Shown in pieces: positions 1,349 to 16,268 of a DNA stretch of 64,000 nucleotides. The stretch comes from Aureliella helgolandensis. Its GTDB lineage: Bacteria > Planctomycetota > Planctomycetia > Pirellulales > Pirellulaceae. How positions within the stretch are numbered: the stretch's first letter is position 1; each line of letters starts with the position of its first letter. The DNA lies in contig NZ_CP036298.1 of the NCBI RefSeq assembly GCF_007752135.1, positions 3,968,001 through 4,032,000 of the forward strand, in the 5' to 3' direction. The notes below the pieces were generated by a model. That model searched no databases. It saw only the letters and a program-made list of their open reading frames with translations, and was not told the DNA's origin. A program made the translations under genes and the position numbers.

Positions 1349-1546
1349 CTACTCCTCGCTCGTCTCGCGTTGCCTCACCCAACTGTCCAGTGATGCTACC
1401 GCGAATCGGATAGATCGACCAACTCTCACGAATGGCAATTGCCCCTGATGCCTCAACTTAAACAAGGTCCGCTCGCTTAATCCAAGCATCTCAGCCGCCT
1501 GTCTTGCCGTCACCAGCCTTGGCGACAAACTAACTGTTTGATCCAT
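1349..1546 (-). CDS. Excisionase-like helix-turn-helix protein
   Basis: Small DNA-binding protein of 65 residues of the MerR-like excisionase HTH (HTH_17) type. The diagnostic pattern is a helix-turn-helix around TARQAAEMLGLSERTLFKL followed by the wing GQLPFVRVGRSIRF and DSWV. The frame extends upstream to 1585, but ATG 1546 is preceded by GGAGG about ten bases away, so I take it as the start. It lies directly upstream of the integrase in the same direction and probably acts as its recombination directionality factor, a placement common in integrative elements. It could instead be a plain regulator. Confidence 0.8.
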   Translation of the reverse strand: MDQTVSLSPRLVTARQAAEMLGLSERTLFKLRHQGQLPFVRVGRSIRFAVASLDSWVRQRETSEE

Positions 1547-1671
1547 CGCTATTCCAACCTCCATTGCTTCCCAATTCAGCGGCATACCACACGCCGCTTG
1601 ACCGTGCCGACCAATGATACGACAATATACGATAACCAGTCAAGTACACGAATTTGGATACTCGAAAAATT
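1547..1671. promoter_or_regulatory. Divergent promoter/operator region between xis-like and XRE genes
   Basis: This 125-bp gap separates two divergent regulator genes and must hold both promoters. It contains an inverted repeat AGCGGC-9 nt-GCCGCT (1578-1583 and 1593-1598) and an AT-rich stretch TATACGATAA near 1626. By analogy with temperate phages the XRE protein would bind here. No consensus promoter can be called with confidence. Confidence 0.35.
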
Positions 1672-2145
1672 ATGGCAGCTGAGGAAACATGGATTCGGTT
1701 CCAGGTTGAATGGCTCTGCCGCAGAGCAACGCAAATACGAGAATTGTCGGGGCTAACACAGGCTCAAGTCGGGGAGCGAATGGGGACATCGAAATCCCAT
1801 GTAAGCAACTTCGAGCTGTGCCGGACGGAGCCTCGAATCAGGACGTTCAGCAACTACTGCAATGCTCTAGGCGTTGACTTGGAGACGCTTTTTACGGGGA
1901 TGCCAAACCTCAAGGGGAGGCATAGACTACCTACGACTAATGAGTTTGACAGGCTATGTCGAGATGCGCTCGGGCTCTCCGCAGGGCAAACCCAGGAGGT
2001 GTTAAGTGCGTTTGCCACCACCGACGCAGGCGCTGATCAATTGTACCAACTGCTAAACCTGGCGGATCGACACCCGCAATACAGAGAGGCAGCAAAGGAG
2101 TGGATCATCTCGTGCATGAGGACAGTGTACAGGCGTATATTATAA
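1672..2145 (+). CDS. XRE-family transcriptional regulator
   Basis: Phage-repressor-like regulator of 157 residues. A Cro/C1-type helix-turn-helix occupies roughly residues 20-75: IRELSGLTQAQVGERMGT, then SKSHVSNFE and a final helix ending in LGVDLETLF. The C-terminal half (about residues 90-157) is helical and unrecognised; it lacks the LexA/S24 Ser-Lys peptidase pattern, so repression would not be relieved by RecA-stimulated self-cleavage. The start is ATG 1672; a TTG six codons upstream is also in frame. It stands divergent to the excisionase-integrase pair, the normal place of the maintenance regulator of an integrative element. Confidence 0.8.
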   Translation: MAAEETWIRFQVEWLCRRATQIRELSGLTQAQVGERMGTSKSHVSNFELCRTEPRIRTFSNYCNALGVDLETLFTGMPNLKGRHRLPTTNEFDRLCRDALGLSAGQTQEVLSAFATTDAGADQLYQLLNLADRHPQYREAAKEWIISCMRTVYRRIL

Positions 2146-2267
2146 CGCTGTTTTCACCCCAACTGTAGAGGGGGTAGGCGGATAGGTGACGCGAGACCGG
2201 TAGTTCGCGACATTGAGTCGGGACACTGTATGGAGAAAATTCCTGGTGAATGATTTGCCAGGGGCGC

Positions 2268-2305
2268 AAAAAAAACCCACCAGACCAACGAATGATCTAG
2301 TGGGT
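2268..2305 (-). terminator. Intrinsic terminator reading on the minus strand
   Basis: Arms 2275-2284 and 2296-2305 pair over ten positions (one G:U) around an 11-nt loop. On the minus strand the hairpin is followed by eight T residues, a good Rho-independent signal. No minus-strand gene is evident just upstream of it, so it either ends an unrecognised antisense transcript or is a chance fold. The rest of 2146-2314 holds no gene; a degenerate copy of the element's dispersed 23-bp repeat lies near 2178-2199. Confidence 0.5.
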
Positions 2306-2314
2306 AATTAATCG

Positions 2315-3799
2315 TTGCGTTCGGCCTCTCGGGTGGTACTGACTGGCCAAACGTTCAACACTTCAGGGTGGAGATCCGTCGTGTCGTCTAGTTCATTATT
2401 CTATAACAAATCCAGATTTTCTTCAAGTAAAGGGGTTCGCGGGAGCGCAAATCTGGTTCCGGTCCCGTTTGGGGCAGAGGATGCCATATCGCGAGCAACG
2501 GCTAACGACAAGCTCCAGAGTCGTGCATGCCATATGGTGAGCAAATTCTTTGTTCGCACTCTATGCGACAAGCGTTGTCGAACTCGGGATGACGACGCTC
2601 GCTGGATACCAATGAGCAACGTCCAATGGAAGCGGGAAGTCAACTCCGCCTACGCCGGTGACGTTAAGAGCGTCCTGCTTGATACAGGCTTGATCGAACA
2701 GGATGGCAACCGTTATTGGGCTGGTGGTTGGGTCGGTAAGAAGTACGTCGATCCCTTCCCTATGCAATATAGGCTCACGGCTCGGTACAGGCATGCAGAG
2801 GACTTTGGGCTAGCGAGAGGGAGCCGGAGGTCTGTTAGAAGTATCGATCCCAATGTAGTAGGCGACGTAGGAATGAAGTTAGTGGATCGGCTACCATTGC
2901 TCCGTCTACCTAGTGGTTACGCGCCATCGAATGCGTGGGACGAACTAGCATGCGTCTCAGTCAACCGGAGTGATATATATGCTACGAGATGCGATTTTGG
3001 AGGCCGTCTACACACTACGTATACAGGTATGGCTGGCCAGACACGTCGCCAACTAGTCAGCTCGGATGGCCAGCGGTTAGCATTCATCGACGTTAAGTGC
3101 TCGCAGCCTAGCATCCTCCGTCAGGTAGCATCGCTTGGGGCAGAAACCAGGAGTCAACTGATAGCCCAGGCATTGCGTGAGATCTACCCGGGGAAGGCTG
3201 ACGACAAGCGGATGGTACCAGCACCGGAAGCTCGAAACGCGGAAGCGAGGCAGTTGAAAAACCGAGGTGCTCATATGACGTCCGAATTTGATAGCCACGT
3301 CGGGGGGGGCGACACAGTGGCGGCGGCTGGCCAGCGCTACGTTGACGGCACGTTGTACGACAGCCTAATTCAGCATTTCCCGGTCGCAAGGAGTTGGGGA
3401 GCCGTGCTACCTTACTTGGAGGTTAGAAGGCGAATAAAAAAGGCCTATGCCGTTCTCCTTTTTGCCGAAAACTGGCAGGCTGAGCGATCCAAGCTCTGGA
3501 AGCATCTTAGCAGGACTGATGGAGGATACCTCTCTTGGCTCAGGGAAATGAAGTCCATTCATTCGTACAAGGCAATTGCTCGCATCGGCCAGCGTATAGA
3601 ATCGAGGGTACTCCTTGACGGCGTCGCCTCGGATTTCTGCACCCAGTTTCCGGGCGAGGCAATTGCAACATGCCATGACGAATTAATTGTCCCATCAAAG
3701 CGAGCTGGCTGGATCGTTGACAGCATAGACGAACGGTTTGGACGCCTGGGCCTGAAAGTGAAGACCGAAACGGAAGCTGGCCAGTCCATGAAAGCGTAG
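2315..3799 (+). CDS. Divergent family A DNA polymerase-like protein
   Basis: Protein of up to 494 residues, normally the kind left as hypothetical. A probable winged-helix part (about residues 95-165, ending in a YRLTARYR-like segment) leads into what looks like a PolA palm. Motif A is D259-V-K-C-S-Q-P (compare DYSQIELR). Motif B is R371-R-R-I-K-K-A-Y-A (compare RxxxKxxNFG). Motif C is C-H454-D455-E456-L-I (compare VHDEL). Between B and C runs ARIGQRIESRVLLDGVAS, in the place of the PolA helix QGSAAD. Both catalytic carboxylates (D259, D455) are present. No 3'-5' exonuclease domain is visible and the protein is much shorter than Pol I. The start is unclear: TTG 2315 has no good ribosome site and ATG 2534 is the first in-frame ATG. 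A nuclease gene follows. Polymerase activity is inference. Confidence 0.55.
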   Translation: MRSASRVVLTGQTFNTSGWRSVVSSSSLFYNKSRFSSSKGVRGSANLVPVPFGAEDAISRATANDKLQSRACHMVSKFFVRTLCDKRCRTRDDDARWIPMSNVQWKREVNSAYAGDVKSVLLDTGLIEQDGNRYWAGGWVGKKYVDPFPMQYRLTARYRHAEDFGLARGSRRSVRSIDPNVVGDVGMKLVDRLPLLRLPSGYAPSNAWDELACVSVNRSDIYATRCDFGGRLHTTYTGMAGQTRRQLVSSDGQRLAFIDVKCSQPSILRQVASLGAETRSQLIAQALREIYPGKADDKRMVPAPEARNAEARQLKNRGAHMTSEFDSHVGGGDTVAAAGQRYVDGTLYDSLIQHFPVARSWGAVLPYLEVRRRIKKAYAVLLFAENWQAERSKLWKHLSRTDGGYLSWLREMKSIHSYKAIARIGQRIESRVLLDGVASDFCTQFPGEAIATCHDELIVPSKRAGWIVDSIDERFGRLGLKVKTETEAGQSMKA

Positions 3800-3910
3800 C
3801 TGTCGATCCGGCAGCAACAGTATACTTCCCCCCCCGACCAACCACGTCGCAACGTAAGGAGTCTTTCAACCAAGTACCTGGCGCAAGGAAGCGTCACCAA
3901 GGAGTTAGGG

Positions 3911-4444
3911 ATGACAGTAGCGTTTAAGCAGTGTGCGCCGATAGCCAAGGAAGGGCTCGCGCGAGTCATTGAATATGCCACTCGCGAACGATGTCAGTTG
4001 GTGACTACGAGCCAGCAACTCTTTCTTGAATCCGCTGCTGGAGACTTCCTGCTTAGGGAGCGGGCAGGAGGGAAGTGGAAGTTTGTTGAGCTTAAAACGG
4101 AAGCGAGATTTACAGGTAACTTATTCGTTGAACTTCACCAAGATCGGGCCTCAGGGCTCCCAGGCTGGTTGCACACCCTGAACGAGGGGGTTTGTGACGA
4201 GCTTTGGTATCTTTTCCTCGACAATAGCAGACTGTACCGATTCAACTGGCCCCAGTTGAAAAAATGGATTGAATTGAACCAAGGTAAATTCAAGCAATGT
4301 TTGCAGCGGAAGCGAAAGACTACACATGAGACAGTTGGCCTAATAGTCCCCGTCGAACGCATATGTGCCGCCAGAATCCCATGCAGAATCGTGCAGCTAT
4401 TGCCACCCCCTCCAGTGGAGGCCGATATTAGGCAGGTGTTGTGA
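3911..4444 (+). CDS. PD-(D/E)XK nuclease-like protein
   Basis: Protein of 177 residues. The central part shows the restriction-endonuclease-fold signature: D45 in AAGDFLLRE, then E60-L-K62 in KFVELKTEARF, each at the end of a predicted beta strand, followed by an alpha/beta segment with DELWYLFLDNSRLYRF (about residues 95-115). This layout suits a metal-dependent nuclease, as in VRR-NUC or Holliday-junction-resolvase-like proteins. The start ATG 3911 has AAGGAG eight bases upstream. It follows the polymerase-like gene on the same strand after about 110 bp, which suggests a shared role in element replication or recombination. It could also be a defence nuclease. Fold call from motifs; substrate unknown. 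Confidence 0.55.
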   Translation: MTVAFKQCAPIAKEGLARVIEYATRERCQLVTTSQQLFLESAAGDFLLRERAGGKWKFVELKTEARFTGNLFVELHQDRASGLPGWLHTLNEGVCDELWYLFLDNSRLYRFNWPQLKKWIELNQGKFKQCLQRKRKTTHETVGLIVPVERICAARIPCRIVQLLPPPPVEADIRQVL

Positions 4445-4541
4445 CGAATCCAGTTTTTTTGACGAATAAGGTCGACCGGTACTTGCCTACTTGGTATTGC
4501 ACGTTACTCAGATTAGAATTCACGAAGAAAGGGCGATCCTG

Positions 4542-5216
4542 ATGAAAGTACGAATCAAGCTCAGCCCAAATCAAATTGCACAGCTTCTCCGTTGTGCAGG
4601 AATTGGAGTTGAGAAGTTAACTAAACTAGCAATCGAGCTTGGGGACTTGGTTGATCCGCCGCTTCGGCCAGATCTCCTGCTTGAAGAGTTTACAAAACTA
4701 CTTGGCCCGGAGGATGCAGAGTTTCTGCTCGATCAGCTACTTTCATTGAGCGTGAGTATTCGAGCAAGCGATTCGAAATCAGTTGACGTGACGCAGGCGA
4801 TTCAGAATGCTATCGAGAATGCAGCAGATAGAGAAAAGTGGGATTCGATCGCGCTTTGCATCCAAACCCTGATCGACTCCGCGCCAATTCGCCTTGTCAC
4901 GAAGGCAATGGAGTTGAGTTATGATCATGCAAATCTGCTTAGAAGAGGCCGTATCCTAACCGATTTGCGCCCTATTTTCGATGAGGAAGGTAGTGCCGTA
5001 GAAGCTGGCGTCGTGACTCACACCCTTCGAATTGCCTATGTGAGCGACGATGGAAGACATGAATTAAGTATGGCGCTAGATTTGCAGGACATACTCAAAT
5101 TTAAGGAACAATGTGAGCGTGCTATCCGAAAGGCCTCAACCGTTCGGGATATGTTCACCCTATCAACTAAGAAACCATGCCTAATTTCTGGTGAAGCGGA
5201 GGAAACAGATGTTTAG
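4542..5216 (+). CDS. Unknown protein, first gene of a three-gene cassette
   Basis: I do not recognise this 224-residue protein. Its N-terminal two thirds are helical, with leucine-rich segments (LLRCAGIGVEKLTKLAIEL). The C-terminal third starts with beta-like THTLRIAYVSDDGRHELSMA and ends in an amphipathic helix (DILKFKEQCERAIRKAS). There is no signal peptide or membrane segment, so it should be cytosolic. ATG 4542 with GAAAGGG upstream is preferred to the in-frame TTG at 4491. The downstream gene overlaps its end by 8 bp, so the two are probably translationally coupled. The sequence is visibly AT-richer than the flanking element backbone, in keeping with acquired cargo. Confidence 0.7.
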   Translation: MKVRIKLSPNQIAQLLRCAGIGVEKLTKLAIELGDLVDPPLRPDLLLEEFTKLLGPEDAEFLLDQLLSLSVSIRASDSKSVDVTQAIQNAIENAADREKWDSIALCIQTLIDSAPIRLVTKAMELSYDHANLLRRGRILTDLRPIFDEEGSAVEAGVVTHTLRIAYVSDDGRHELSMALDLQDILKFKEQCERAIRKASTVRDMFTLSTKKPCLISGEAEETDV

Positions 5217-6153
5217 CTCAGCCCCAGCTTATTGCGAAACGATTAGAAATGACATGCATATTGCAGTAATCAGCAGTGATTTTCGTAGCGCTAAGAACTG
5301 GTATACAGCCAAAGCCTCACCCAAGTGCCGAATGCAAACGTCTTATAACTGGGCACAGTGGGTTAACGCACGCGTTGATACTCAATATACAATTGACGCT
5401 GAAGATGCCGCTCGCGATGAAAGCACTACAACCGAAGGGCGAATTCGTGAGGCTTGGAACAAATTAGCTTTCCTACGCCACCGCGCCGAAACAAAAAAGG
5501 CACACCGTTTATCAGCGTCGGACAAAGCCACGTTCGAAGACCTCTGTTCCTGCATTCACGAAATAGCATCGGAATTTGGCCCTGGTGATTGGAATCAGCT
5601 GTTCACTTATACAGATTTTTCCGCAATTCCACTGCCCGTTTCGATCCTAACTTTAGCATTTACGGAAAGAGAAGAAGGGCGAATACCTTCCAGAAAAGTA
5701 TTCGTTGAGCGATGTCGCAAAGCTGTTCGCGCCTTGGGGATGACAAGTTGTTTGTTCGAAACGGAGCTTCCTGAAGAAACATCGAATTCGAAAGAAGAGA
5801 TGTTTCGCACTGCTGCGCACATGCTGGCGTGTTTAGAGGAGCAAACTGCAACTAATGGCTATTTAAAAGCAGCCAGCCAGTTCGAGAAAGCAAAAGAAGC
5901 TCGTTGGGCACTGGCCTGCATATATCGCAACGTGCGCTATCGTATTAGGGACGAGCAATTGGATGAACTCGACAAGGACATTCGTACGTTCGACGCTCAC
6001 AGTGCAGGAGTGGACACCATGCTCGCAATTCTCACGGCAACTGCACCGATTAAATCGAAACTCCCCAGCCGGAAGTCTCTATACAGAAGTGTTCGTCGTG
6101 AATTGAAAAATCGCCCAGGGTCGGAACGTGGCATCCTTGATGGACTGAAGTAG
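5209..6153 (+). CDS. Unknown protein, second gene of the three-gene cassette
   Basis: Protein of 314 residues with no domain I can name. The start is fixed by GGAGG followed by ATG 5209, inside the last codons of the preceding gene. The N-terminal 60 residues are polar with aromatics (NWYTAKASP, YNWAQWVNARVD). A charged linker (DAEDAARDESTTTEGR) leads to a mainly helical body rich in Cys and Lys, and the C-terminus is strongly basic (RKSLYRSVRRELKNRPGS), which could contact nucleic acid. No transmembrane helix is apparent. It is followed after 5 bp by the peptidase-like gene. Together with its neighbours it forms one transcription unit; role unknown. Confidence 0.7.
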   Translation: MFSSAPAYCETIRNDMHIAVISSDFRSAKNWYTAKASPKCRMQTSYNWAQWVNARVDTQYTIDAEDAARDESTTTEGRIREAWNKLAFLRHRAETKKAHRLSASDKATFEDLCSCIHEIASEFGPGDWNQLFTYTDFSAIPLPVSILTLAFTEREEGRIPSRKVFVERCRKAVRALGMTSCLFETELPEETSNSKEEMFRTAAHMLACLEEQTATNGYLKAASQFEKAKEARWALACIYRNVRYRIRDEQLDELDKDIRTFDAHSAGVDTMLAILTATAPIKSKLPSRKSLYRSVRRELKNRPGSERGILDGLK

Positions 6154-6158
6154 ACTCG

Positions 6159-6896
6159 ATGGACAGAATTCATTGCCAGTCAATTAGGGATTCCACAGAG
6201 ATCCAGCACGTTGCGGTTTTTATTCAGGAACCGCTGCCCAACCAGAGGCATACAGGAATTGCTTTCCGCGTAAACCTTAGCGATCCACTTGAATACTTGC
6301 ACTTGGCATGGCATTGCAGGCTTTGCAGGGAAACTCGCCTCGGAACCTCTTATTTTTGGGTTGATCCGAAGATAGCTTCCAGTAGACTCCGGCAAATCGC
6401 AGGCATCTGTGACGACATTGCACACGCTAATAGTAGCGAACAAATTCCCTACTCGTTCGGGACTCCTATAGGAGCATTTGACAGCAAAACAAAGAAGTTC
6501 TTGCTTGGCCCAACTGCAACAGGTTTGACATGCGCCAGCTTTGTTCTGTCCGTTTTTGAAACGGCTCAATTACGATTGGCTAGGTACACCGGTTGGCCTA
6601 AGCCTGATGAGGAAGATAGAAAGTGGCAGGAAAACATACTTAATTTACTTCATAAAAGCAAATACGTATCGCCAGAACACATTAAGGCCGTAGAACGCGA
6701 AGTTGGTACATCAGTTCGATACCGTCCTGAGCAGGTCGCTGCCGCTGCTGCATTGAGAGTCCGCCGTCCTGTTAAATACCGTCATGCCAAGTCCTTGGGC
6801 GACGACCTCGTACGAACTTTGCGTGGAGAACCTGTTGATGGGGCGTTTAGACTCTCGTTGTGGGAACGGCTCCTAGATAGGCTTGGAATGACCTGA
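6159..6896 (+). CDS. Permuted NlpC/P60 (papain-fold) peptidase-like protein
   Basis: Protein of 245 residues. In the N-terminal half RHTGIAFRV (H31) matches the His motif of permuted NlpC/P60-LRAT proteins, and further on TGLTCASFVLSVF (C125) matches the nucleophile helix. The order His before Cys is that of the permuted subgroup (YiiX/YaeF-like, LRAT-like), whose members act as thiol peptidases, amidases or acyltransferases. The C-terminal 100 residues are helical and basic (ALRVRRPVKYRHAKS). No signal peptide is present, unlike cell-wall NlpC/P60 enzymes, so an intracellular target is likely. It begins 5 bp after the preceding stop and closes the cassette. Catalytic activity is predicted, not proven. 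Confidence 0.5.
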   Translation: MDRIHCQSIRDSTEIQHVAVFIQEPLPNQRHTGIAFRVNLSDPLEYLHLAWHCRLCRETRLGTSYFWVDPKIASSRLRQIAGICDDIAHANSSEQIPYSFGTPIGAFDSKTKKFLLGPTATGLTCASFVLSVFETAQLRLARYTGWPKPDEEDRKWQENILNLLHKSKYVSPEHIKAVEREVGTSVRYRPEQVAAAAALRVRRPVKYRHAKSLGDDLVRTLRGEPVDGAFRLSLWERLLDRLGMT

Positions 6897-7227
6897 TACT
6901 GCCACTACGCGAGCTATCCCTATGTTCAATCTAACGAGCAGCCTTTAATACTTCTAGCGACCATCGGGCAGTTTTTTTGGTCCCAGCAAGTGCCGCCGTG
7001 CTGATTCTACGGCTAGTTGCCATTCAGGCAGTAGCTCCCCAGAAACTGAGGCTTGCTTGATAGTCGATAGCGGAGTGTCTCTCGAACGCTTGCCTTGCAA
7101 TTTGGGCAACTGAACTCACGGGGAAGTCTACCTATATACAAAGCCTCGCCAATCTCGATCCCACGTTTCTGGCCGTACTCTGCATCTACAACCCCAGCAA
7201 AATGACTCTCGCGAAGCTTCGGGGGAT
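6897..7227. other. Intergenic stretch left of the IS
   Basis: No convincing gene. In the minus direction, between 7226 and 7013, a frame of about 70 codons contains CPNCKAS, reminiscent of a zinc ribbon. Across the IS it would join a start at MPPKL in the right flank, so a small gene may have been cut by the insertion. The evidence is weak because no ribosome site is visible. Confidence 0.3.
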
Positions 7228-8689
7228 GTCCCTTGCGTTGTTAAAACTGTTGGTGGTCTCGCTGGCTAAAGGGTACTGGAAAAGGTCTTTAGGATCAAAC
7301 AGGTGGTGGAACTAAAGTGATGGGGCCCGTGCCGTCGCCGGAGCCGTAGGCGACGGCACGGGCCCCGACGGCGGCTTTGTTGGTGTAGCCGCGTGTTCTC
7401 TCGCTAGGGCGGCAATCAGCTTAGGTAGTTCCTTGTGGCCGCTGATTCGATGGAACCCCTTTTCGGCCTCAAGCAGTGCGTAGGACAGCCAGCGACTCGC
7501 CTGATCCGTGTCGGCTCGGAATCGTGTTACACGCCCCAAGCGGCGACGCGTGTTCAGGAAGGAGTTCTCAATCGCGTTGGTACTTAGCAGTGAACGATGG
7601 AGCGTGTTTGGCACTTCGAGTCGGTGTAGGGCTAGCAGGTCCTCACCGGCCTCATGAAGGCTCTTAAACGCTTCGGCATTGAGAGGCTCAAGGAATGCCT
7701 CTAGCTCGCCGACGACCTCTTGTGCGGCGGTATAACCCTGCACGCTACGGAGTCGTCTAAACAGCCGAGCGAGTTCACCCGTATGACGCTTCGATAGCTT
7801 GCCACGAATGTTGCGTTCCTTGTGAACTAAGCAGCGTTGGATGACCGAGTCGGGGAAGTGCTCCTTGACCGCTTTGCGAAGCACATCGCTGCCATCCAGG
7901 ACTGCCAGTAATCGCTGCGAGCAAGTAAAGCCGCGACGGGCCAAGCGAGCCAGCAATTCATTGGATACAACGGCATTTTCACTACTGCCCAGCGCAAAGT
8001 CGAGCACATGCTTGCAGCCTTCAGAATCAATACCGAGAGCAACCACTGCCGTCTGGTCTGAGCTTAGCCGGATACCATCGAGCATCAGAATGCACCACGT
8101 ATGCCCCGACAGATCACGGCTGCGTAGCTCGTCGATCAATCGTGTTCCCGCCTCTTGCCATAGACGCGAGACGCTCGAGCGGCTTACGCCTGGCGACTTC
8201 GGCTTCACCACAGACATCTGACGAGTGCTTACCCCAGACATCAACGCTTGAATTACAGCCTTCTCCAGCTGCTCAGGATCGTTGGCGGCAGCGTAGCTGA
8301 TCAGCTCCACTTCGCGGCTTCCCCCCGCCTCCTGACGCTCGCGAACTCGCGGACGCGTCACCGACTCCCGTTCACCTTCGACCAAGATGCGTCCCGCGGC
8401 GCTACCAGCTCGATAGGTCCGACAATCGCTCGGGGCGTGCTTTGGGCCGCACAGTTCAGCCACTTCGGCAGCCATTACCTCACAGGCCATCTTCACGATC
8501 GAGCCCCGTAAGAATTCGCGAAACACTTCGCCAACTTCAGCGTTCGAAACTTGCCCAAGCTCGCGCAACAAACTAGATTCAGTCATGGTGGTCTCCCCGT
8601 CGGCGGTAACCGACGTAAATTGGAAAATGCAGAAGGCAATATATTGCCTTCTGGGAGACCACCTTTCAACTTTTAACAACGATTGGGAC
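7228..8689 (-). mobile_element. IS256-family insertion sequence
   Basis: An element of about 1.46 kb bounded by imperfect terminal inverted repeats. The left end (7228-7260) and the reverse complement of the right end (8655-8689) both start GTCCC, share CGTTGTTAAAA after three variable bases, and end in GGTGGTCTC, with a two-base length difference between the last two blocks. A 12-bp direct repeat, AAGCTTCGGGGG, lies just outside both ends (7214-7225 and 8696-8707). It is longer than the 8-9 bp duplication usual for this family and not perfectly flush, so exact borders are uncertain. The element contains one intact transposase gene and seems recently active. Confidence 0.85.
7312..8586 (-). 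CDS. IS256-family (mutator-type) transposase
   Basis: DDE transposase of 424 residues that moves the surrounding IS by cut-and-paste or copy-out chemistry. The catalytic triad is visible: D in CILMLDGIRL, D in LAVLDGSDVLRKA, and E in STNAIENSFLNTRRRLGR. The motif CLVHKERN lies between the second D and E, as in other family members. The length agrees with the family. The start ATG 8586 follows GGAGACCACC; upstream in-frame codons belong to the IS leader. The C-terminus carries a Pro/Ala-rich tail. The frame is intact. A decayed relative lies at 43371-43758. Confidence 0.93.
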   Translation of the reverse strand: MTESSLLRELGQVSNAEVGEVFREFLRGSIVKMACEVMAAEVAELCGPKHAPSDCRTYRAGSAAGRILVEGERESVTRPRVRERQEAGGSREVELISYAAANDPEQLEKAVIQALMSGVSTRQMSVVKPKSPGVSRSSVSRLWQEAGTRLIDELRSRDLSGHTWCILMLDGIRLSSDQTAVVALGIDSEGCKHVLDFALGSSENAVVSNELLARLARRGFTCSQRLLAVLDGSDVLRKAVKEHFPDSVIQRCLVHKERNIRGKLSKRHTGELARLFRRLRSVQGYTAAQEVVGELEAFLEPLNAEAFKSLHEAGEDLLALHRLEVPNTLHRSLLSTNAIENSFLNTRRRLGRVTRFRADTDQASRWLSYALLEAEKGFHRISGHKELPKLIAALAREHAATPTKPPSGPVPSPTAPATARAPSL

Positions 8690-8707
8690 GCTTCCAAGCT
8701 TCGGGGG

Positions 8708-9207
8708 CATACTGCGAGCGGTAACTTGCCACTACAGACATAATCCCTAGATGCACATGCCTATTCGGTTGTTCAACATGCAAGCAGTAGCGTTCAGCAA
8801 ACCCTTCTGAATACATCCCGGGTTTTACGGCATCAAGAACATTCACAACCTCCACTGGAACAATGTGATGCCACATGAGATCAACTACATGCGCAGTAAG
8901 GATACTAGTACTGAACAGACAGGAATTACAGCGCAACGAATACTCGTTGGGAGCACAGTACCTTCTGACTACCAGATGGAATTTCGTGGAGCAACACGAA
9001 ACGCATGGATCAAAGGATTGGGAGCACACCGCCAATTTCCAGCAACTCTCCCTCACAACTGATTCGACCATATACAAATCCATAGCGGTCTCGCTGACTT
9101 AGGTCGTATTTCATTTGGCTACCCTGATCCCCTGAAATTACTCGCAGCCCAAGCGAACAATACGGTAATAGGTTCAGAGGCAGTATAACATCAAGCGAGG
9201 ACCAGCC
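8708..9207. other. Intergenic stretch right of the IS
   Basis: No gene that I can support. A minus-strand frame (9083-8708) is open but has atypical composition and no ribosome site. GCGAGGA at 9195-9201 is the ribosome-binding site of the next gene, and the promoter of that gene must lie here. Confidence 0.4.
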
Positions 9208-12200
9208 GTGCCAACTCTCCGACAACTCTATGGGCCAACTCTAAGCTCACCGGGAGAAGCAGTTGATCGGATGCAGTTCAGCATCGATTCAATTTTAAGA
9301 CAACCGAATCTCCCCGAAACAAACCATAAACTGAAGGAAGCAACCAACTCCACGGTTGGTGGTGGTCTTGCTGCTGCTGGAAACATTTTGGATCTTCCTG
9401 GTTCAAGTGTGCGGGATGTCCTTGCATTCCAAAATCCACTCGATCAATGGCTAACACCAACAAGCCATGAGAACCGGACTACCGGGCGCGATCTGGCAAG
9501 AAACTTTGGCCTAGCAAATAAGGGCAAGGATACCTACGCCAACTTCTTCGGTGGCCTGGGTGCTGAGGTGCTGCTTGACCCGTTGACTTACACCGGTGTT
9601 GGCCTGCTCACCAAGGGAGGCAAGGCGCTCGATGCTGCTGGATTGGCTGGACGCAACGTAACCAAGACGGCAAACAAGCTGGCAACAGAGACGGCCAAGA
9701 AGTCTGGCAACGTCATGACTAAGGAGCTTGGCAAGGCTGGTGCGCGTATGCGCATGACTCCACGGCAAGTGATTGAATCGGCTGACGACTCGCTCAAGGC
9801 TAAGTCTGCTTGGCTCAAGACTCGTGGACAACTCACCGACAAGATGGTTGCCGATGCTGGGGATGACAGCGCAAGCCTCGTTGAAGGCCTGTGGGACAAC
9901 ATTGCCAACCCTGACAAAGGCGCTGTTGATGAACTGCTGGACAAGCCTCTACAGTCCATCGCTTCATTCCGCATTCCAGGCTTGATGCCCGAAGCAAAGG
10001 AACTCGTACCCAAGGACTCCGGTGAGAGTGCGCTAAGGAAGTTCGTAGACAAGAACTCAGCCAAGGCACCAGACGGTACGCTGCCTCCAATTGGAAGCCA
10101 GCCAGCACCACCACCCCTGCCCGGCACGCCAACTCAGCCAGTAGGCGACACGGTGACGCGTACCCCGTTGGCGGGGCAAGGGCTGGGAGGTAAGGCGAAG
10201 GAATTCCTACAGGGAGGTGGGCAAAAGATCTCTGAATTTGCTAAGTCGATTGGCAAGTTTAGCAAGGATTGGAAGTCTCAGCTGCCTGAAGACCTGGCTG
10301 TCTCGGTGGGCGATGCGATTGACAATGGAACTAGCACGGTCATGGCGGTTCCTGCGGTTGAGAATGTGGTTGCACTGTTCAACCCGTACGTGCGCGGTGG
10401 TGCTACCAAGATGCAACGCGAGGTTGGTAGGGATATCACTGAGTCACTCGACCAAGCTACGGAAGGGTATCGCGAAACGCTGCTGCCTGTGATTCGCAAA
10501 TTCGAAGAGAGCAAGATTCTTGACGAGCCAAGCATGCTGAATGCTGGGCTGAGCAAAGAGCAGGCTGCTTCGAAGATGAACGACTACGATAGGCAGATGC
10601 GAAACTACCTGGAGAACTACGACCCCAAGAACGGTCGCACCGGGACGGTCCTGCCAAGTGAGCTCAAGCCGCTAGAGGGTGAGCTACGCAGTGTTCGCAA
10701 GATGATGGATGACATCATTGACTTCGAGAAGGAGTCGGGCCTAGACACGCGGTTCCTGGACGACGAGTTCGTTTCATACCTAGCGCGGTATCGTCGAGAC
10801 CCGGCCAAGGCATACGGGCACAACCCAACGGTTGGCCCTGTAGTTGAGGCATCCCACCCATCCATGAAGCAACGCGAGTACCGCGACATGCCTGGAGGCG
10901 TGGCTGTGCTTCAAGAGGCGTCAGTCGATCCGGTTATCTCGGGGATTCTGCATCGCAACCCGGTAGTTAAGAATCGTCTGGACACTGGGGACATCGCTGA
11001 TCTTCGCCAGTATGTGGCGCAGAAATACGGCGACCGAATTGACGCTGACTTTGACCCAACGCAACCGATGAAGGATAGTGACACCCGATTCGATGCGTTC
11101 ATTCGCAGTGCTGCCAAGTGGGACAGATCCTACGCAGACAACCAGACCCCTATGTTTGGTCGCAACTTTGTGGCGGATACAATGCGACGGCTGGAAGACG
11201 GCTTGCGTGTTGGCTTCGTAGCAAGGCAGGCACAAACAATTTTGGGCAAGTCTGCTATCCCTACCGACGTGACAACCATTGAGGTTGGCAAGCGGGTGGG
11301 GAATGCTGCGCGAGCTGGAAACATCGCAAGCCCGGCAGATGCTAGGGCCGTTGCTGGTGAGGTTCCTCAGGCGTACACGATCAAGAAGGTTCTCGAAGAC
11401 CTGGAGCTCAATACTCCCAAGGCACGGCTGAACACAATCAACAACATGGACGAGCCTGCGCAAGCCATGTTCGACGACATGGTGCAGAGGCGAAGTGCTG
11501 AAGTCTTTGATGAGCTTGCCGAGAACATCACTGAAGGTGCGGACGAGGTAAAGACTATCCGGCTTATGAGCGGTGGTAAACCTGCCGAGTTCTACCTGAG
11601 CGAAGATGGCGACATTATTCGCAAGTCTAGCAAGACGGTTCGGGATAAGTCAGAAGGCGCCAAGAAGGGGGCTACCCAGCAAGTTGATCAAGTCGACGAG
11701 ATACCGATCGACGAATTTGAGGATGTGATTCGTGAGAATGTTTCACCCGACTTCCTGGATAAGTTCGGTGTCGATGGCGATACGCACCTTGCGTTGACAC
11801 GCCGCATGAAACCGTTCAGCAGTCCCGATGAAGTGGGATACTTTGCCAAGGGAATGCACCGGTTCATGAACGTCTTCCGTTCTGGACTTACCGCACCATG
11901 GCCAGCGTTCCACGCTAGAAACCTTTTGTCTGGGCAAGTTCACAATGCAATGGTTGGCGCCAAGGATCCAACCGGTAAGGGACCGATGGCATACTTCAAA
12001 CCTCTGAAGGAAGCCTACGACCTGCGCAATGGTGAACCGATCAAGGGTATTGCCGAGGACATTCCATCGTTTAAGGGGATGACCGACGAGGAAGCAACTG
12101 CCAAGATAGCAGACCTTGCATTCATCTATGGTCTGGTGGGTGACAAGATGGGGCTGGCCGCTGAGCATATCGGCGATAGTCACCAAGCTATGCGGAGTCA

Positions 12201-13401
12201 GGTCCCAGGGCTCAACCGGGAAGTGAATCCAATCAAGCTGAAGTTCTCTCCAGCGCCGCCAAACACAAGCTTTTTCGACAGGTGGTTGAACCCCTTTGCC
12301 GTCAAGGATGGTGTCTCTGGTGGGGCTGAGGGAGTGGCCAAGGTTAATGATGACCTGTGGATGCCTGCACGGCTCGGTAGAGACCTTTCGTCGTTCGTTG
12401 AGGATCTCAATCGCCTAAGCCCGTTCATCGCTTACATGAAGCAGGGGATGAGCCCAGCCAAGGCGGCTCAGTTGGTCAAGAAGAATCAGGTTGACTACTC
12501 GCGGCTGAGTGCGTTCGAGCGTAACACCGCGCGGAGTGCAATTCCGTTCTACACGTTCTCCTCTCGCATGCTGCCTGTCGTCTTGGAAGAGTTGATCACG
12601 AGTCCTGGTGGACCGATGGCTCAAACGGTTCGGGCTATCAATCGTGCAAGGGCGCCTGAGGACAGCATCCCGGAACACATCGCAAGTACTGCGGCCATTC
12701 CCCTGGGAACCAAGAGCGATGGGAGCAAGAGCTACCTGACTGGTTTCGGATTGGCCTTTGAGGATAGCCTAAACCTCGCCAATGGCTTGCTGCGAATGAA
12801 CCCGGTTGAAACTGCGAAGGAGATAGCAGGACGCTCCAGCCCGTTTATCAAGGGGCCTGCTGAGGCTATCTTCGGTCGATCGTTATTCTTTGATGGTCCG
12901 TTCGGTGGTAGGGAACTTGAGGACATGGATCCAACCATTGGGCGAACAATGTCCAACGTGCGTGACATTGCTACCGGCGCGAACACGCGGGACGTTGATC
13001 CGTTCATCAGCCAAGGATTTGAGCATGCGTTTTCGAATAGCCCGTTGTCTCGCCTTGGAACCACGGCGCGAACACTCACCGACAAGCGCAAGTGGGAACG
13101 TCCCCAAGACTTGGCAATGAATCTCCTTACCGGGATGCGTGTCAGCGACGTGTCTCCCGATGCACAAGACGCTATCTACCGCGAGAGACTAGCCAGAAGC
13201 CTCAAGGATATGGGAGGCAGGACATTCTCCAGGCCTTACATCTCTGACGCCAGAGAAGAGGCAATGAGCCCTGAGGAACTGGCTGCTGCTGAAGAGGTGC
13301 TCAACGAACTGGGTGTGATCGACAAGCGATTCAAGGCACGCCGTGAGGTGCGGGAAGCAGAAGAGGCGGGGCGAAGCATTCAGGCAGCACTTGGTCGTTA
13401 A
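9208..13401 (+). CDS. Giant phage-type protein (internal virion/ejection-like or large polyvalent protein)
   Basis: Protein of 1397 residues starting at GTG 9208 with GCGAGGA seven bases upstream. The N-terminal region has Gly/Ala-rich, weakly hydrophobic stretches (TVGGGLAAAGNILDLPG and ANFFGGLGAEVLLDP). A proline-rich linker (QPAPPPLPGTPTQP) sits near residue 300. The body is long and helical. The C-terminal third has the pattern seen in large phage proteins: WPAFHARNLLSGQ near residue 910, and later AFERNTARSAIPFYTFSSRMLP. Such proteins are ejected with DNA or act as polyvalent proteins during entry. No capsid, terminase or tail genes are present nearby, which is odd for a virion protein. 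A copy of the dispersed 23-bp repeat is embedded in the gene at 10144. The family call is by resemblance only. Confidence 0.5.
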   Translation: MPTLRQLYGPTLSSPGEAVDRMQFSIDSILRQPNLPETNHKLKEATNSTVGGGLAAAGNILDLPGSSVRDVLAFQNPLDQWLTPTSHENRTTGRDLARNFGLANKGKDTYANFFGGLGAEVLLDPLTYTGVGLLTKGGKALDAAGLAGRNVTKTANKLATETAKKSGNVMTKELGKAGARMRMTPRQVIESADDSLKAKSAWLKTRGQLTDKMVADAGDDSASLVEGLWDNIANPDKGAVDELLDKPLQSIASFRIPGLMPEAKELVPKDSGESALRKFVDKNSAKAPDGTLPPIGSQPAPPPLPGTPTQPVGDTVTRTPLAGQGLGGKAKEFLQGGGQKISEFAKSIGKFSKDWKSQLPEDLAVSVGDAIDNGTSTVMAVPAVENVVALFNPYVRGGATKMQREVGRDITESLDQATEGYRETLLPVIRKFEESKILDEPSMLNAGLSKEQAASKMNDYDRQMRNYLENYDPKNGRTGTVLPSELKPLEGELRSVRKMMDDIIDFEKESGLDTRFLDDEFVSYLARYRRDPAKAYGHNPTVGPVVEASHPSMKQREYRDMPGGVAVLQEASVDPVISGILHRNPVVKNRLDTGDIADLRQYVAQKYGDRIDADFDPTQPMKDSDTRFDAFIRSAAKWDRSYADNQTPMFGRNFVADTMRRLEDGLRVGFVARQAQTILGKSAIPTDVTTIEVGKRVGNAARAGNIASPADARAVAGEVPQAYTIKKVLEDLELNTPKARLNTINNMDEPAQAMFDDMVQRRSAEVFDELAENITEGADEVKTIRLMSGGKPAEFYLSEDGDIIRKSSKTVRDKSEGAKKGATQQVDQVDEIPIDEFEDVIRENVSPDFLDKFGVDGDTHLALTRRMKPFSSPDEVGYFAKGMHRFMNVFRSGLTAPWPAFHARNLLSGQVHNAMVGAKDPTGKGPMAYFKPLKEAYDLRNGEPIKGIAEDIPSFKGMTDEEATAKIADLAFIYGLVGDKMGLAAEHIGDSHQAMRSQVPGLNREVNPIKLKFSPAPPNTSFFDRWLNPFAVKDGVSGGAEGVAKVNDDLWMPARLGRDLSSFVEDLNRLSPFIAYMKQGMSPAKAAQLVKKNQVDYSRLSAFERNTARSAIPFYTFSSRMLPVVLEELITSPGGPMAQTVRAINRARAPEDSIPEHIASTAAIPLGTKSDGSKSYLTGFGLAFEDSLNLANGLLRMNPVETAKEIAGRSSPFIKGPAEAIFGRSLFFDGPFGGRELEDMDPTIGRTMSNVRDIATGANTRDVDPFISQGFEHAFSNSPLSRLGTTARTLTDKRKWERPQDLAMNLLTGMRVSDVSPDAQDAIYRERLARSLKDMGGRTFSRPYISDAREEAMSPEELAAAEEVLNELGVIDKRFKARREVREAEEAGRSIQAALGR
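10144..10166 (+). repeat. Dispersed 23-bp repeat, copy inside the giant gene
   Basis: Its reverse complement is identical over all 23 bases to 13558-13580; the core on the minus strand reads ACGCGTCACCGTGTCGCC. It encodes the VGDTVTRTP part of the proline-rich linker, a position that tolerates insertion. Confidence 0.7.
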
Positions 13402-13450
13402 CACATCACCAGTCGCTAATGGGCGTTTTTAGGCTAAAACTACCACTGAT

Positions 13451-13472
13451 GGGGTGCGCGTCACCGTGTCGC
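13451..13472 (-). repeat. Dispersed 23-bp repeat, copy 2
   Basis: Differs from the copy at 13558 at one of 22 positions (GGGGTG in place of GGGGTA). Same orientation as that copy and 107 bp from it. Confidence 0.7.
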
Positions 13473-13557
13473 ATTGGTCGCAAACGCTCGTAGCATGAAA
13501 GGGAAAGGGAAAAGGAATGCGGGTACTCATATGACGTCCGGATTTAGTAGCCATTGC

Positions 13558-13580
13558 GGGGTACGCGTCACCGTGTCGCC
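13558..13580 (-). repeat. Dispersed 23-bp repeat, copy 3
   Basis: Perfect match, inverted, to 10144-10166. It lies 20 bp from the stop of the clamp-like gene. Confidence 0.7.
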
Positions 13581-13599
13581 TGCTGCTACATTGGATTGG

Positions 13600-14655
13600 C
13601 TATTGGCTAGCAGCTTTAATTGATAAGGTTGACGGTCCGCACTTAATAGACTCTTGCTCCAGGAGAATCATGTTAAAAAACGGCTCGCCTAAAGCTAGCA
13701 TCTTCCGAGTTTCGCTGATTGGTAGTCCTGGGATTCGCGGAAGCCTGGCACCTCGCGCCGGAATTGTGGCGGTGGTCTTACCTGCGGTGAGCTTGATCGA
13801 TCTGGCTCGGGTTGTGGTTCCAGACACCACAACCCGAGCAACCTTACCATCTGCTGCGTCAAAGCCAGAGAGTGCTACTGCTAAGTCCTCCGGATCAAGT
13901 ATTACGGCTGACGGGCTGAAGGGCTTCTCAACCGCACGCCGTGAGCCTCCCTGCAGGACTTCAAGCACTGACTTCCCTGTGATAGTTTGGGGCTCCTGAG
14001 TCTGGGCCGTTGCTCCAACGAACTGCAACGCATTGCCATTTGCCTTCAGCTCGCAGTCAGCGCAAGACACAACCGTCCAGCAACCTTTTCCAAGTAGCTT
14101 GATAGCAATACGACACTCCCTTGGCGTCAGCGCCAGCGTCTTGTCTTGCCGTGAATTCCCCAGCGAGCCGACTGTATCGAAATCACCACGACGCACAGAA
14201 AATCCGCTAGATTCAAGACTAATCGAGATATCTCCCTTGCCGCAGGCGAGTGCCATCTCAAGCGCCTTCGAAAGCTTTTCGGCTTCAGTCGTGAGCGTTG
14301 CAGCCTGCCGCTTCCTTCGCTCCGCACCCGCCGAGTGAGGCACTTGCGCAAGTTTCAGAATGCTTGGCACCAGACGTAACGTCGCCTCCTCGCCTACCTC
14401 AGCTCCATTCACGGCGACTCGCAGCAGATCAGGGATTTTAGTTTTGATTCGGGAGAGTAGTAGACCCGCTTGCCAGTCACAGGTAAAGGCTCCCGGAATA
14501 CCGACCTTACTCGGGATCGACTGGACCGCAATGACATTTGAGAGCTTGTGCTTTACGAGCGTTCCGCGTTCATCTGCAGTGACTTCGGCGCGGGCCTGCT
14601 TCCCGCAAACTGCAATGGCTTTCCCAAGTAGCCCCACGTCAACTGTGACTTCCAC
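13600..14655 (-). CDS. Unknown protein, possibly sliding-clamp-like
   Basis: Protein of 351 residues, close to the 360-380 of bacterial DNA polymerase III beta clamps. It starts at GTG 14655 with AAGGAGACGGC just upstream. I see a repeated layout in which a beta strand is followed by a helix: VDVGLLGKAIAVC (residue 5 on), LTTEAEKLSKALEMAL (about 120), LTPRECRIAIKLLGKG (about 180) and LDPEDLAVALSGF (about 255). Each is followed by strands such as CELKANGNALQFVGA. This resembles the repeating half-domains of a processivity clamp. If so, it would pair with the polymerase-like protein of the same element. No sequence signature proves it; treat as unknown with a testable fold idea. Confidence 0.35.
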   Translation of the reverse strand: MEVTVDVGLLGKAIAVCGKQARAEVTADERGTLVKHKLSNVIAVQSIPSKVGIPGAFTCDWQAGLLLSRIKTKIPDLLRVAVNGAEVGEEATLRLVPSILKLAQVPHSAGAERRKRQAATLTTEAEKLSKALEMALACGKGDISISLESSGFSVRRGDFDTVGSLGNSRQDKTLALTPRECRIAIKLLGKGCWTVVSCADCELKANGNALQFVGATAQTQEPQTITGKSVLEVLQGGSRRAVEKPFSPSAVILDPEDLAVALSGFDAADGKVARVVVSGTTTRARSIKLTAGKTTATIPARGARLPRIPGLPISETRKMLALGEPFFNMILLEQESIKCGPSTLSIKAASQ

Positions 14656-14782
14656 CGCCGTCTCCTTGTGTGTGCCTTCCCTCCAAATCCACTAACAGAG
14701 TATTCTCTGCGTGTCGGCACAAATTGTGCCCAGAGGCATCAAAAAGTATAACACGAAAAAATCCGGGCGAGGTAGATATGAT

Positions 14783-14822
14783 ATACGGAGGGGGCGGGCA
14801 GGGGACACCACCCCCTCCGTAT
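14783..14822. other. Strong GC-rich hairpin
   Basis: Perfect 12-bp arms ATACGGAGGGGG (14783-14794) and CCCCCTCCGTAT (14811-14822) enclose a 16-nt loop. Neither side has a T-run, so it is not a standard terminator. It lies between two minus-strand genes and could attenuate read-through, protect an mRNA end or serve as a protein-binding cruciform. Confidence 0.5.
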
Positions 14823-14843
14823 CAACAGCGATATTTTATGCGG

Positions 14844-15140
14844 CTAGGCGATACAGGTTCGCCATATGTTCAGCAGTTGCTCGCCAGTCAAGCTAGACTG
14901 CAGGTCGGCCCGGTTGTCTTCGAGTTCATCCACTCGCACAGCGACTCCAGTAACTCTCTGCAGTTCTACTTCCAGCCTGCAGCAAACTAAATCAATTGCT
15001 GCATCGCAACCACCAAACATTCGATGCGCCCAAAGCCAGAGGTCTCCAGCATCGGCAAAAGGGTTGCAGGCTTCTGCGGCGGAGAAGTGAGAAGCGATTA
15101 GCCTCTCAGGAGTAAGCAATACAGTTTCGTGATCGATCAT
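14844..15140 (-). CDS. Small protein of unknown function
   Basis: Acidic 98-residue protein, start ATG 15140 with AAGGA twelve bases upstream. It looks genuinely coding: balanced composition with ordered hydrophobic segments (WLWAHRMFGGCDAAIDLVCCRLEVELQRVTGVAVRVDELE). No domain recognised. It lies downstream of the two HTH genes on the same strand and upstream of the clamp-like gene, so it may be part of one rightward module of the element. Confidence 0.55.
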   Translation of the reverse strand: MIDHETVLLTPERLIASHFSAAEACNPFADAGDLWLWAHRMFGGCDAAIDLVCCRLEVELQRVTGVAVRVDELEDNRADLQSSLTGEQLLNIWRTCIA

Positions 15141-15185
15141 TCTGTGGGTCCTTATAGAACAAAAATAGTCGCAGCCGAGTGGCTG

Positions 15186-15437
15186 CTATGCACCAAACAT
15201 CTCAAGCATTGGGCATCTGCCGAGTTCTTCGAGTGGCTTTACTAGCCCAGGTGTTGCGTGGTAGTCCAAGTCCGATATGCAGTCCCTGTGTATGCGGAAC
15301 ACTCTTCTCGTTGGCGTGCCCACGTTCCTCGTCCTGGTCAGTGTTCCGTTGGCGCACCTTCGGATCACGGTATTGCACGAGACTCCGATCAGGTCTGCAA
15401 ATTCCTGAACGGTGTACCACTCTTTGTCTGATTCCAT
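15186..15437 (-). CDS. Excisionase-family HTH protein, duplicate A
   Basis: DNA-binding protein of 83 residues. The HTH starts at WYTVQEFADLIGVSCNTVIRRCA and is followed by a wing with NVGTPTRRVFRI. The last 27 residues (from YHATPGLVKPLEELG) form an extra tail not usual for excisionases. Start ATG 15437, ribosome site GAGGAG. It is about 85% identical to the gene immediately upstream (15539-15799), so the pair arose by tandem duplication. Probably a regulator or directionality factor of the element. Confidence 0.8.
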   Translation of the reverse strand: MESDKEWYTVQEFADLIGVSCNTVIRRCANGTLTRTRNVGTPTRRVFRIHRDCISDLDYHATPGLVKPLEELGRCPMLEMFGA

Positions 15438-15496
15438 CGCACATTCTCCTCTTTGATAGTTTGTGAATCACGATAGGTATAACACGCGACTGCACC

Positions 15497-15518
15497 GACG
15501 ACACGATGACGCGACCCC
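15497..15518 (+). repeat. Dispersed 23-bp repeat, diverged copy 4
   Basis: About 20 of 23 positions match the copy at 10144 with one base missing (GACACGATGACGCGACCCCC core). It sits between the duplicated HTH genes, in the promoter region of duplicate A. Confidence 0.55.
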
Positions 15519-15538
15519 CGGTAGTGGGGGTAGTGCTG

Positions 15539-15799
15539 CTATGCACCAAACATCTCAAGCATTGGGCATCTGCCGAGTTCTTCGAGTGGCTTCACTAGCC
15601 CAGGCGTTGCGTGGTAGTCCAAGTCTGCCAAGCAGTCCTTGTGGATGTGGAACCTTCGCTTTGTTGGCGTGCCAACGTTTCTTGTCCTAGTCAGGGTTCC
15701 ATTGGCGCACCTTCGGATCACAGTGTCAGGCGATACGCGTATCAACTCAGCGAACTCCTGGACGGTATACCATTCTTTGTCTGTGTTGTTGCTGCACAT
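15539..15799 (-). CDS. Excisionase-family HTH protein, duplicate B
   Basis: Paralogue (86 residues) of the gene at 15186-15437. The HTH core reads WYTVQEFAELIRVSPDTVIRRCA, and the C-terminal tail from YHATPGL to the end is identical in both. Start ATG 15799 with AAGGAGAGG upstream. The differences are concentrated in the recognition helix (GVSCNT versus RVSPDT), so the two proteins may have distinct DNA targets. Both are intact. Confidence 0.8.
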   Translation of the reverse strand: MCSNNTDKEWYTVQEFAELIRVSPDTVIRRCANGTLTRTRNVGTPTKRRFHIHKDCLADLDYHATPGLVKPLEELGRCPMLEMFGA

Positions 15800-15843
15800 C
15801 CGGCCTCTCCTTGAATCATGGTTTGGGGATTTTCGTTCGCATG

Positions 15844-16098
15844 TTAGGCACGCGGCAGTGACTGGCTATGCATCACGACCGGGATGGATCGACCGGTAGG
15901 GCCATGTCCGGCGCAGAAAGATAGTGCGGCATGCAGCGTGAGGTTATCAGCATCCGTGAGTTGTTCGCAGCAGAGGGTACCATCGGGACTGACTAGGCGA
16001 ACAGACCACACGCGAGCATGCTGATCCGGTATCGTTTTGGCCAAATATGCTTCGGATTTTGCTTCGGGTGGCTCAGCTGTCTCAGTTTCCCTTGGCAT
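15844..16098 (-). CDS. Small protein of unknown function next to the attachment site
   Basis: Possible 84-residue protein starting at ATG 16098 (PRETETAEPPEAKSE), two bases from the tRNA fragment. No Shine-Dalgarno site is visible, since the upstream sequence is the att site itself; an in-frame TTG at 16143 would read through it. Segments such as ARVWSVRLVSPDGTLCCEQLTDADN look protein-like. No domain recognised; moderate doubt that it is expressed. Confidence 0.4.
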   Translation of the reverse strand: MPRETETAEPPEAKSEAYLAKTIPDQHARVWSVRLVSPDGTLCCEQLTDADNLTLHAALSFCAGHGPTGRSIPVVMHSQSLPRA

Positions 16099-16099
16099 A

Positions 16100-16128
16100 T
16101 CGCACAGGTTCGAATCCCGTACCGCCCA
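16100..16128 (+). other. tRNA 3' fragment, putative attR
   Basis: CACAGGTTCGAATCCCGTAC followed by CGCCCA is the T-arm and 3' acceptor strand of a tRNA gene: the invariant TTCGAAT loop, a 5-bp stem ACAGG/CCCGT with one mismatch, then ACCGCCC plus discriminator A. The 5' part (GGGCGGT expected) is absent upstream, so this is not a complete tRNA gene. A partial tRNA 3' end at the far end of an integrase-bearing region is the standard attR of elements that integrate into tRNA genes. The intact tRNA should lie just left of base 1, with the same orientation. Confidence 0.7.
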
Positions 16129-16168
16129 CTGGTAGAAGAACAAGCGATTCGTTGGTCAAAACGAATAC

Positions 16169-16183: not shown

Positions 16184-16268
16184 AGCGCACTGTTTGCAAG
16201 ACTGAAATCGGGAACTTATCCGGGAACTAACCGGGAGCCCCGATTTCCTAGCAAAAGGCGTCGCTCCC

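Follow-up and report, generated by a model that had tools for sequence, protein, structure and literature searches.

The open reading frame at positions 2315–3799 (+ strand) of the window, i.e. the whole 64,000 nucleotide stretch of DNA analyzed here, raises the question of whether a protein without recognizable database relatives is a polymerase and, if so, of what kind. It has 494 codons when counted from the TTG at position 2315, and the in-frame stop upstream is at position 2309. The first ATG is at residue 74, and similarity to homologues already begins near residues 47–49. The GTG at position 2381 (residue 23) has an SD-like sequence upstream, GGTGGAG. Thus the real start is probably GTG 2381, which would give a chain length of about 472 aa. 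Residues 1–46 have a pLDDT below 50 in the structural model built from 44 sequences.

Taken alone, the window protein has no informative match in Pfam, PHROGs or the PDB sequences, and tblastn searches of plasmids and phages and searches of viral and genome contigs likewise gave nothing informative. A PF00476 match is absent at E 1, and there is no exonuclease domain match. Ten relatives show no PF00476 match at E 0.1, nothing above the Pfam cut-off (best E 0.0036) and no PHROG better than E 0.0057. NCBIfam gave no match at E 0.01 for six members, the window protein among them, and PADLOC gave none for five family members. A role in defence was considered and rejected, as the PADLOC check gave no match for any of 10 proteins. 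The region at positions 1380–6900 is single copy in the host genome (one contig, 8.44 Mb), which also encodes an ordinary PolA. A genome of the same order has an extra PF00476 protein (G239:C1:397214-398467, a 485-aa open frame) besides its ordinary PolA.

The family was opened by a search of genomes of the same class. Matches at E ≤0.001 are present in 13 of 397 such genomes, the host's own included, and comprise 15 ORFs with that of the window. A profile of five of these was used to search viral contigs, where 109 of the 123 stretches that fitted the pattern proved to hold relatives; the best 80 were kept. One viral-contig relative matched six phage records of 595–735 kb and one Hymenobacter plasmid, and a second query protein recovered the same six records, two of which look like one genome. 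A profile search of 392 genomes of the phylum gave five positives, one of them (G696) only partial (E 4.4e-4); the class and phylum draws overlap but differ, and therefore these counts give no frequency. The genome-contig scan confirmed one of 49 stretches, and this is identical to a known Gemmataceae member. In the tree the window protein groups with six other planctomycete proteins, and this clade of seven is supported (99/94). Its branch is long (2.72), thus its exact position is uncertain.

The family alignment has 72 rows, i.e. the 15 ORFs of the same class and 57 of the 80 viral loci; the other 23 were excluded by eye as apparent near-copies and were not scored. R231, D259, Y348, K375, E429, H454 and D455 are invariant in all 72 members, and Q264 and P265 are each found in 71. 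The preliminary description of this DNA had proposed three palm motifs of PolA-type polymerases, and the residues it named are all in place: D259-VKC-SQ, R371-RRI-K375, H454-D455-E456, and QRIESRVLLDGVA at residue 426. It had also proposed a check of D259 and D455 among homologues, and both are retained throughout. The motifs themselves stand as regards D259, K375, H454 and D455, however R371 varies (R in 38 members, K in 30) and E456 is rare, being found in the window protein and one other member only. The residue that follows the HD of motif C is S in 60 members, A in seven, C in three and E in two. Judged by the conservation across the 72 members, the motif residues are not due to chance.

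Motif A (D259-VKC-SQP) is at positions 3089–3109 (+) and has the predicted catalytic Asp. Motif B is in the fingers at positions 3425–3466 (+) and reads R371-xxx-K375-xxx-A379-xxx-F383. Column 379 is Y in 47 and F in 14 of the 72 members but Ala in the window protein, column 383 is F in 63 and Y in eight, and column 384, which is G in 57 members, is also Ala in the window protein. Motif C (T452-C-H454-D455-E-L-I) is at positions 3668–3688 (+), at the turn of a β-hairpin with strands at residues 451–453 and 456–460.

Position +5 after the Asp of motif A was compared with the motifs set Asp on Asp. All 18 PolA proteins from relatives have Glu here (DYSQ[IV]E), and all nine phage RNA polymerases have Gly, whereas 71 of the 72 family members have Gln. 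The corresponding Glu of E. coli Pol I, E710, helps to exclude ribonucleotides (PMC7581432). Alignment with PolA by hhalign sets SQ on SQ and displaces the motif A Asp by two, whereas the alignment with divPolA2, a polymerase-like protein of barbaviruses and related phages, and the spacing of the RNA polymerases place Asp on Asp. The Glu gate is absent from the family in either register (columns 264, 266 and 267).

Two AlphaFold models of the window protein were built, model 1 from 15 sequences (mean pLDDT 70.2, pTM 0.60) and model 2 from 44 sequences (mean pLDDT 77.4, pTM 0.71). In model 2 the 10-residue blocks have pLDDT values of 91–98 over residues 351–490 and of 42–55 over residues 291–340; thus an insert in the fingers at about this latter position is modeled poorly. 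Foldseek searches of the PDB agree with the palm fold that had been proposed from the motifs. The best 50 of 794 matches with model 1 and the best 50 of 809 with model 2 are without exception DNA polymerases of family A, the best E being 2.4e-4 with model 1 and 7.9e-5 (probability 1.00) with model 2. The query TM-scores are low (0.18–0.32) and the rmsd is high in most rows, therefore either the domains are arranged differently or the alignments are not tight. Among the best 50 of 503 matches in BFVD, the top 15 are viral proteins of 400–450 aa. The query TM-scores of the first two are 0.55 and 0.52 and those of the remaining 13 are 0.27–0.33; the name DNA polymerase is given to two of these 15 proteins, including one from a Barba phage. 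Genes of Barba phages are listed in PMC6715854.

In model 2, D259 lies within a strand at residues 254–261, the HD of motif C is at the turn of the hairpin at 451–460, and K375 is on the fingers helix at 367–383. The N-terminal domain (residues 65–154, positions 2507–2776, +) has helices at 65–89, 102–109 and 114–123 followed by strands at 127–154. This predicted order fits the probable winged helix that the preliminary description placed at the N-terminus, however the Pfam HTH match is below threshold (E 0.089), and the domain is best termed winged-helix-like. Two helices at residues 179–195 and 207–217 (positions 2849–2965, +) are likely to form a short thumb. These are followed by a β-hairpin at residues 223–234 (positions 2981–3016, +), with strands at 223–225 and 232–234, that has the invariant R231.

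Comparison of profiles with hhalign, which filtered the 72 family rows to 64, gives a score of 34.5 when the family is set against 19 polymerases of family A (E 1e-3, probability 22%). Addition of three compact PolA proteins of huge phages to this set raises the score to 48.2 (E 1.2e-5, probability 81%); these three alone score 23.0. The score against divPolA2 is 28.2 over 188 columns, and against nine phage RNA polymerases it is 32.1, over only 33 columns around motif C. As a yardstick, PolA and phage RNA polymerase, which are known relatives, score 32.0 against each other. The maxima from shuffled columns are 22.8 for PolA (60 shuffles), 22.8 for PolA with the compact phage proteins (100), 19.7 for the compact proteins (100), 26.6 for divPolA2 (100) and 21.4 for the RNA polymerases (60). 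Thus the tie to family A is well clear of chance and the tie to divPolA2 only just. Sequence homology to family A polymerases, as first proposed from the motifs, is therefore upheld by the profile scores. The scores of 32.1 and 34.5 do not decide between RNA polymerase and PolA. HDS and D-x-x-[NC]-S raised the option that the family is nearer to T7-like RNA polymerases. This was not adopted, as the PDB matches are to DNA polymerases and only a short alignment to the RNA polymerases was obtained.

Among described proteins, the closest likeness is to the TV-Pols. These were defined in 2008 by Iyer, Abhiman and Aravind, who predicted from D5-helicase context that they are prim-pols, and who described chains of 400–600 aa with a two-helix thumb, a hairpin Arg, two palm Asp and RxxxK in the fingers; planctomycetes are among their hosts (PMC2579912). 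The window protein is likewise a small exonuclease-less family A-type polymerase of the kind found in mobile elements and viruses, with integrase neighbours. It has the absolutely conserved hairpin Arg (R231) and the two palm Asp, its two predicted helices before the hairpin correspond to the bi-helical thumb, and R371-xxx-K375 matches the RxxxK of the fingers. Its location in a mobile element, with no nuclease recognized among the 10 of 16 element ORFs searched, is also similar. Unlike the TV-Pol case, no D5 helicase is recognized among the element ORFs searched, and the N-terminus is winged-helix-like whereas a subset of TV-Pols has an all-helical N-domain (PMC2579912). TV-Pols also have a conserved Asp in the fingers; the window protein has D349 as a candidate, in a column that is Q in 37, E in 14 and D in 11 of 72 members. 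Ma-LMM01, a phage with a TV-Pol, gave no match with the 44-sequence or the five-ORF profile, in a comparison where its TV-Pol was not located. The testable features fit the published description, and the window protein is accordingly taken to be a putative divergent member of the TV-Pol kind.

The phage protein divPolA2 resembles the family in being a compact palm protein without an exonuclease, carried besides a regular polymerase, and Yutin et al. 2024 proposed for it either a repair DNA polymerase or an RNA polymerase (PMC11348598). The two share an aligned GR...R..L.IDG....D block, at the score given above, the 26.6 maximum being reached by one of the 100 shuffles. However, divPolA2 differs in that its motif A, DFKAFE, keeps the Glu, and its motif C is FDEV. 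An example protein matches phrog_4756 at E 2.3e-91. The window protein has no match to this PHROG at E 1; three of 11 members matched it, the best at E 0.0057. The divPolA2 genome gave no match with the 44-sequence family profile. divPolA2 is a distant relative of the family.

CCPol, which is placed among the TV-Pols, primes with a partner, MP (PMC7581432, PMC10061031), and it keeps both ribonucleotide-excluding residues (PMC7581432). Like CCPol-MP and the PolA-SSB primases, the window protein is a family A polymerase encoded on an integrative element that also has genes for recombination enzymes. However, CCPol needs the OB-fold protein MP, and no such partner is recognized in the element of the window; the CCPol-MP systems are described in Bacillota. 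The likeness to bacterial DNA polymerase I (PF00476) is in the fold and the motif order. The differences are the lack of a PF00476 or exonuclease match, the Gln at +5, and HDS in 60 of 72 members.

The polymerase gene sits in an element of about 16.2 kb that is integrated in tRNA-Val, and this agrees with the integrative element of the preliminary description. An exact direct repeat of 28 bp is found at window position –56 and at positions 16103–16130 (+). On the left the repeat forms the 3′ end of tRNA-Val(gac), and the right copy is attR-like. This is the only exact repeat of at least 14 bases between the two flanks searched, –9000 to 1650 and 6900 to 18000. A tyrosine integrase is at positions 3–1379 (–), with the ORF extending to about window position –57 (PF00589 E 8.1e-10, phrog_1 E 7.1e-38). 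Between the integrase and the polymerase is an HTH regulator at positions 1654–2145 (+; PF13560 E 3.2e-11).

Four ORFs of 177, 241, 320 and 245 aa follow the polymerase gene on the same strand (positions 3911–6896, +). COMMD proteins are known mainly from eukaryotes. The 241-aa ORF (4491–5216, +) matches the solved bacterial COMMD-like protein 9q6a over residues 84–220 (E 1e-12) and not a clamp, thus the clamp-like partner that had been suggested is not supported. An adjacent nuclease had also been suggested, however none is recognized; for the 177-aa ORF (3911–4444) the searches of Pfam, PHROGs, NCBIfam, PADLOC and PDB were all negative. The 177-, 320- and 245-aa ORFs have no significant PDB match; the 245-aa ORF matches phrog_11836, to which PHROGs assigns no function. 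A 351-aa ORF at positions 13600–14655 has nothing significant in Pfam, PHROGs, PADLOC or PDB. Sixteen ORFs of at least 60 aa were picked in the element and 10 were searched, the other six (78–136 aa) being left out. Among these 10, no helicase, SSB, MP-like partner, repair gene or nuclease is recognized. A comparison with 593 ORFs from 32 polymerase loci found no relative of the 351-aa ORF or of any of the four ORFs downstream, therefore none of these five is a conserved partner of the polymerase. The element also has a Mutator-family transposase at positions 7312–8697 (–), probably a later insertion, and a 1397-aa ORF at positions 9208–13401 (+) for which neither Pfam nor PHROGs gives a match at E 0.01.

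The loci of relatives show several recurrent arrangements. In two planctomycete loci, L148 and L157, the family gene overlaps by four bases the gene for a protein of 905–916 aa (L148:10704-13421, L157:4457-7207), a fusion of a GHKL ATPase with a Spo11/TopVIA Toprim that resembles topoisomerase VI in a single chain. No description of such a fusion overlapping a gene of this kind was found in the literature covered. ParB-like proteins adjoin the polymerase gene at L065:7464-9101, L145:10978-12621 and L147:3215-4111. The ParB_N-like protein overlaps the polymerase gene in the first two, with a match above the Pfam cut-off in L065 and below it in L145. These neighbours suggest plasmid-like maintenance of the elements. 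Five phage loci (L041, L047, L051, L093 and L098) have a conserved unnamed protein of about 440 aa directly upstream, and four of these have another unnamed protein downstream; the one upstream protein searched (L051:8009-9337) has no Pfam or PHROG match. Clusters c3 and c5 are present in seven of the 15 chromosomal loci (L144–L158), and the three members tested are tyrosine integrases.

The large phage records with a family gene carry other polymerases as well, a PolC-type enzyme in two of the four tested and PolB-type pieces in the other two. Thus the family protein is likely not the main replicase. A DnaG zinc ribbon is not found above the cut-off in any of four such records, and one is found below it. 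This absence is not used as evidence, as the search covered no other type of primase and the IMG/VR records may be fragments.

From these data the window protein is very probably a polymerase, and it is about as likely to prime as not. The best explanation, held with slightly better than even confidence, is that it is a minimal exonuclease-less primase-polymerase of the TV-Pol kind encoded by the element. D259 and D455 would bind two metals, K375 the incoming triphosphate and R231 the template or primer, and the N-terminal winged helix may bind the element DNA. A strand might be started, possibly with ribonucleotides, owing to the short thumb and to Gln264 in place of the Glu gate. The protein would then prime, and perhaps extend, synthesis when the element is excised and replicating. 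The lack of a recognized helicase, SSB or MP-like partner among the 10 element ORFs searched counts against this explanation, and CCPol, which retains the Glu gate, is no guide to priming by the window protein. In addition, the long branch and the Ala residues at 379 and 384 indicate that the window protein may be less active than its relatives.

An accessory repair or gap-filling DNA polymerase, capable of primer extension only, has about one chance in four. The family A fold, the coexistence with PolC- or PolB-type enzymes in all four large phage records, and the repair option offered by Yutin et al. for the distant relative divPolA2 (PMC11348598) are consistent with such a role; however the Glu that contributes to ribonucleotide exclusion in Pol I is Gln in nearly all members, and the 10 element ORFs searched include no recognized repair gene. 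A single-subunit RNA polymerase, for transcription or for RNA-only priming, is less probable still. In its favour, D-x-x-[NC]-S in motif A of the family resembles D[GA][ST]C[SN]G of all nine phage RNA polymerases, HDS in motif C is also present in seven of these nine, the hhalign score is near that of PolA, and the idea has been raised for divPolA2 as well (PMC11348598). This reading is opposed by the PDB matches, all 50 listed for each model being DNA polymerases, by the 33-column length of the alignment, by the HDE of the window protein, and by the lack of any identified promoter-recognition domain.

Two further explanations deny that the window protein is active as a polymerase. A decayed or repurposed palm protein, inactive in this element, would account for the very long branch, the unusual residues 379 and 384, the absence of an ATG start and the Mutator-type transposase inside the element, but the reading frame is open and all seven family-invariant residues are kept, which makes decay improbable. 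That the motifs are a chance match in a protein that is no polymerase could be argued from a single sequence without library matches. This is contradicted by the family conservation, the fold and the profile results, and is scarcely credible.

The primase-polymerase reading can be extended to the paired genes of huge phages. In three such loci (L027, L029 and L139) the family gene shares four bases with the gene for another compact polymerase of family A, 428–429 aa long (L027:11173-12462, L029:9928-11217, L139:7161-8447; PF00476 E 1.5e-21 for the one tested). The one partner sequence inspected keeps the Glu (DYHFHE), and the overlapping pair is possibly a two-polymerase operon. A tentative and rather doubtful proposal is that the family is a gate-less branch of family A, shared by integrative elements of planctomycetes and very large phages, which uses ribonucleotides to start strands and in one huge-phage clade is translationally coupled to a compact, gated family A polymerase. 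If true, the coupled pair would be a primase-polymerase unit of two genes that differs from DnaG, AEP and CCPol-MP. Neither the Gln gate nor the paired genes were found described in a literature scope that excluded figures, supplements and most subscription papers, and the family is not mentioned in the consulted parts of a survey of jumbo-phage polymerases (PMC7824862).

In 2008 it was proposed that TV-Pols are primase-polymerases and that they stand close to the root from which the DNA and RNA polymerases of family A arose (PMC2579912), and in 2020, to the knowledge of the CCPol authors, no other TV-Pol had been biochemically characterized (PMC7581432). The family described here offers compact, conserved candidates for such tests, including the two-polymerase gene pair, with the prediction that enzymes lacking the Glu gate should be less strict in their choice of sugar. 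One of these huge-phage loci also has an aspartate/ornithine carbamoyltransferase gene (L027:8421-9308) near its polymerase genes.
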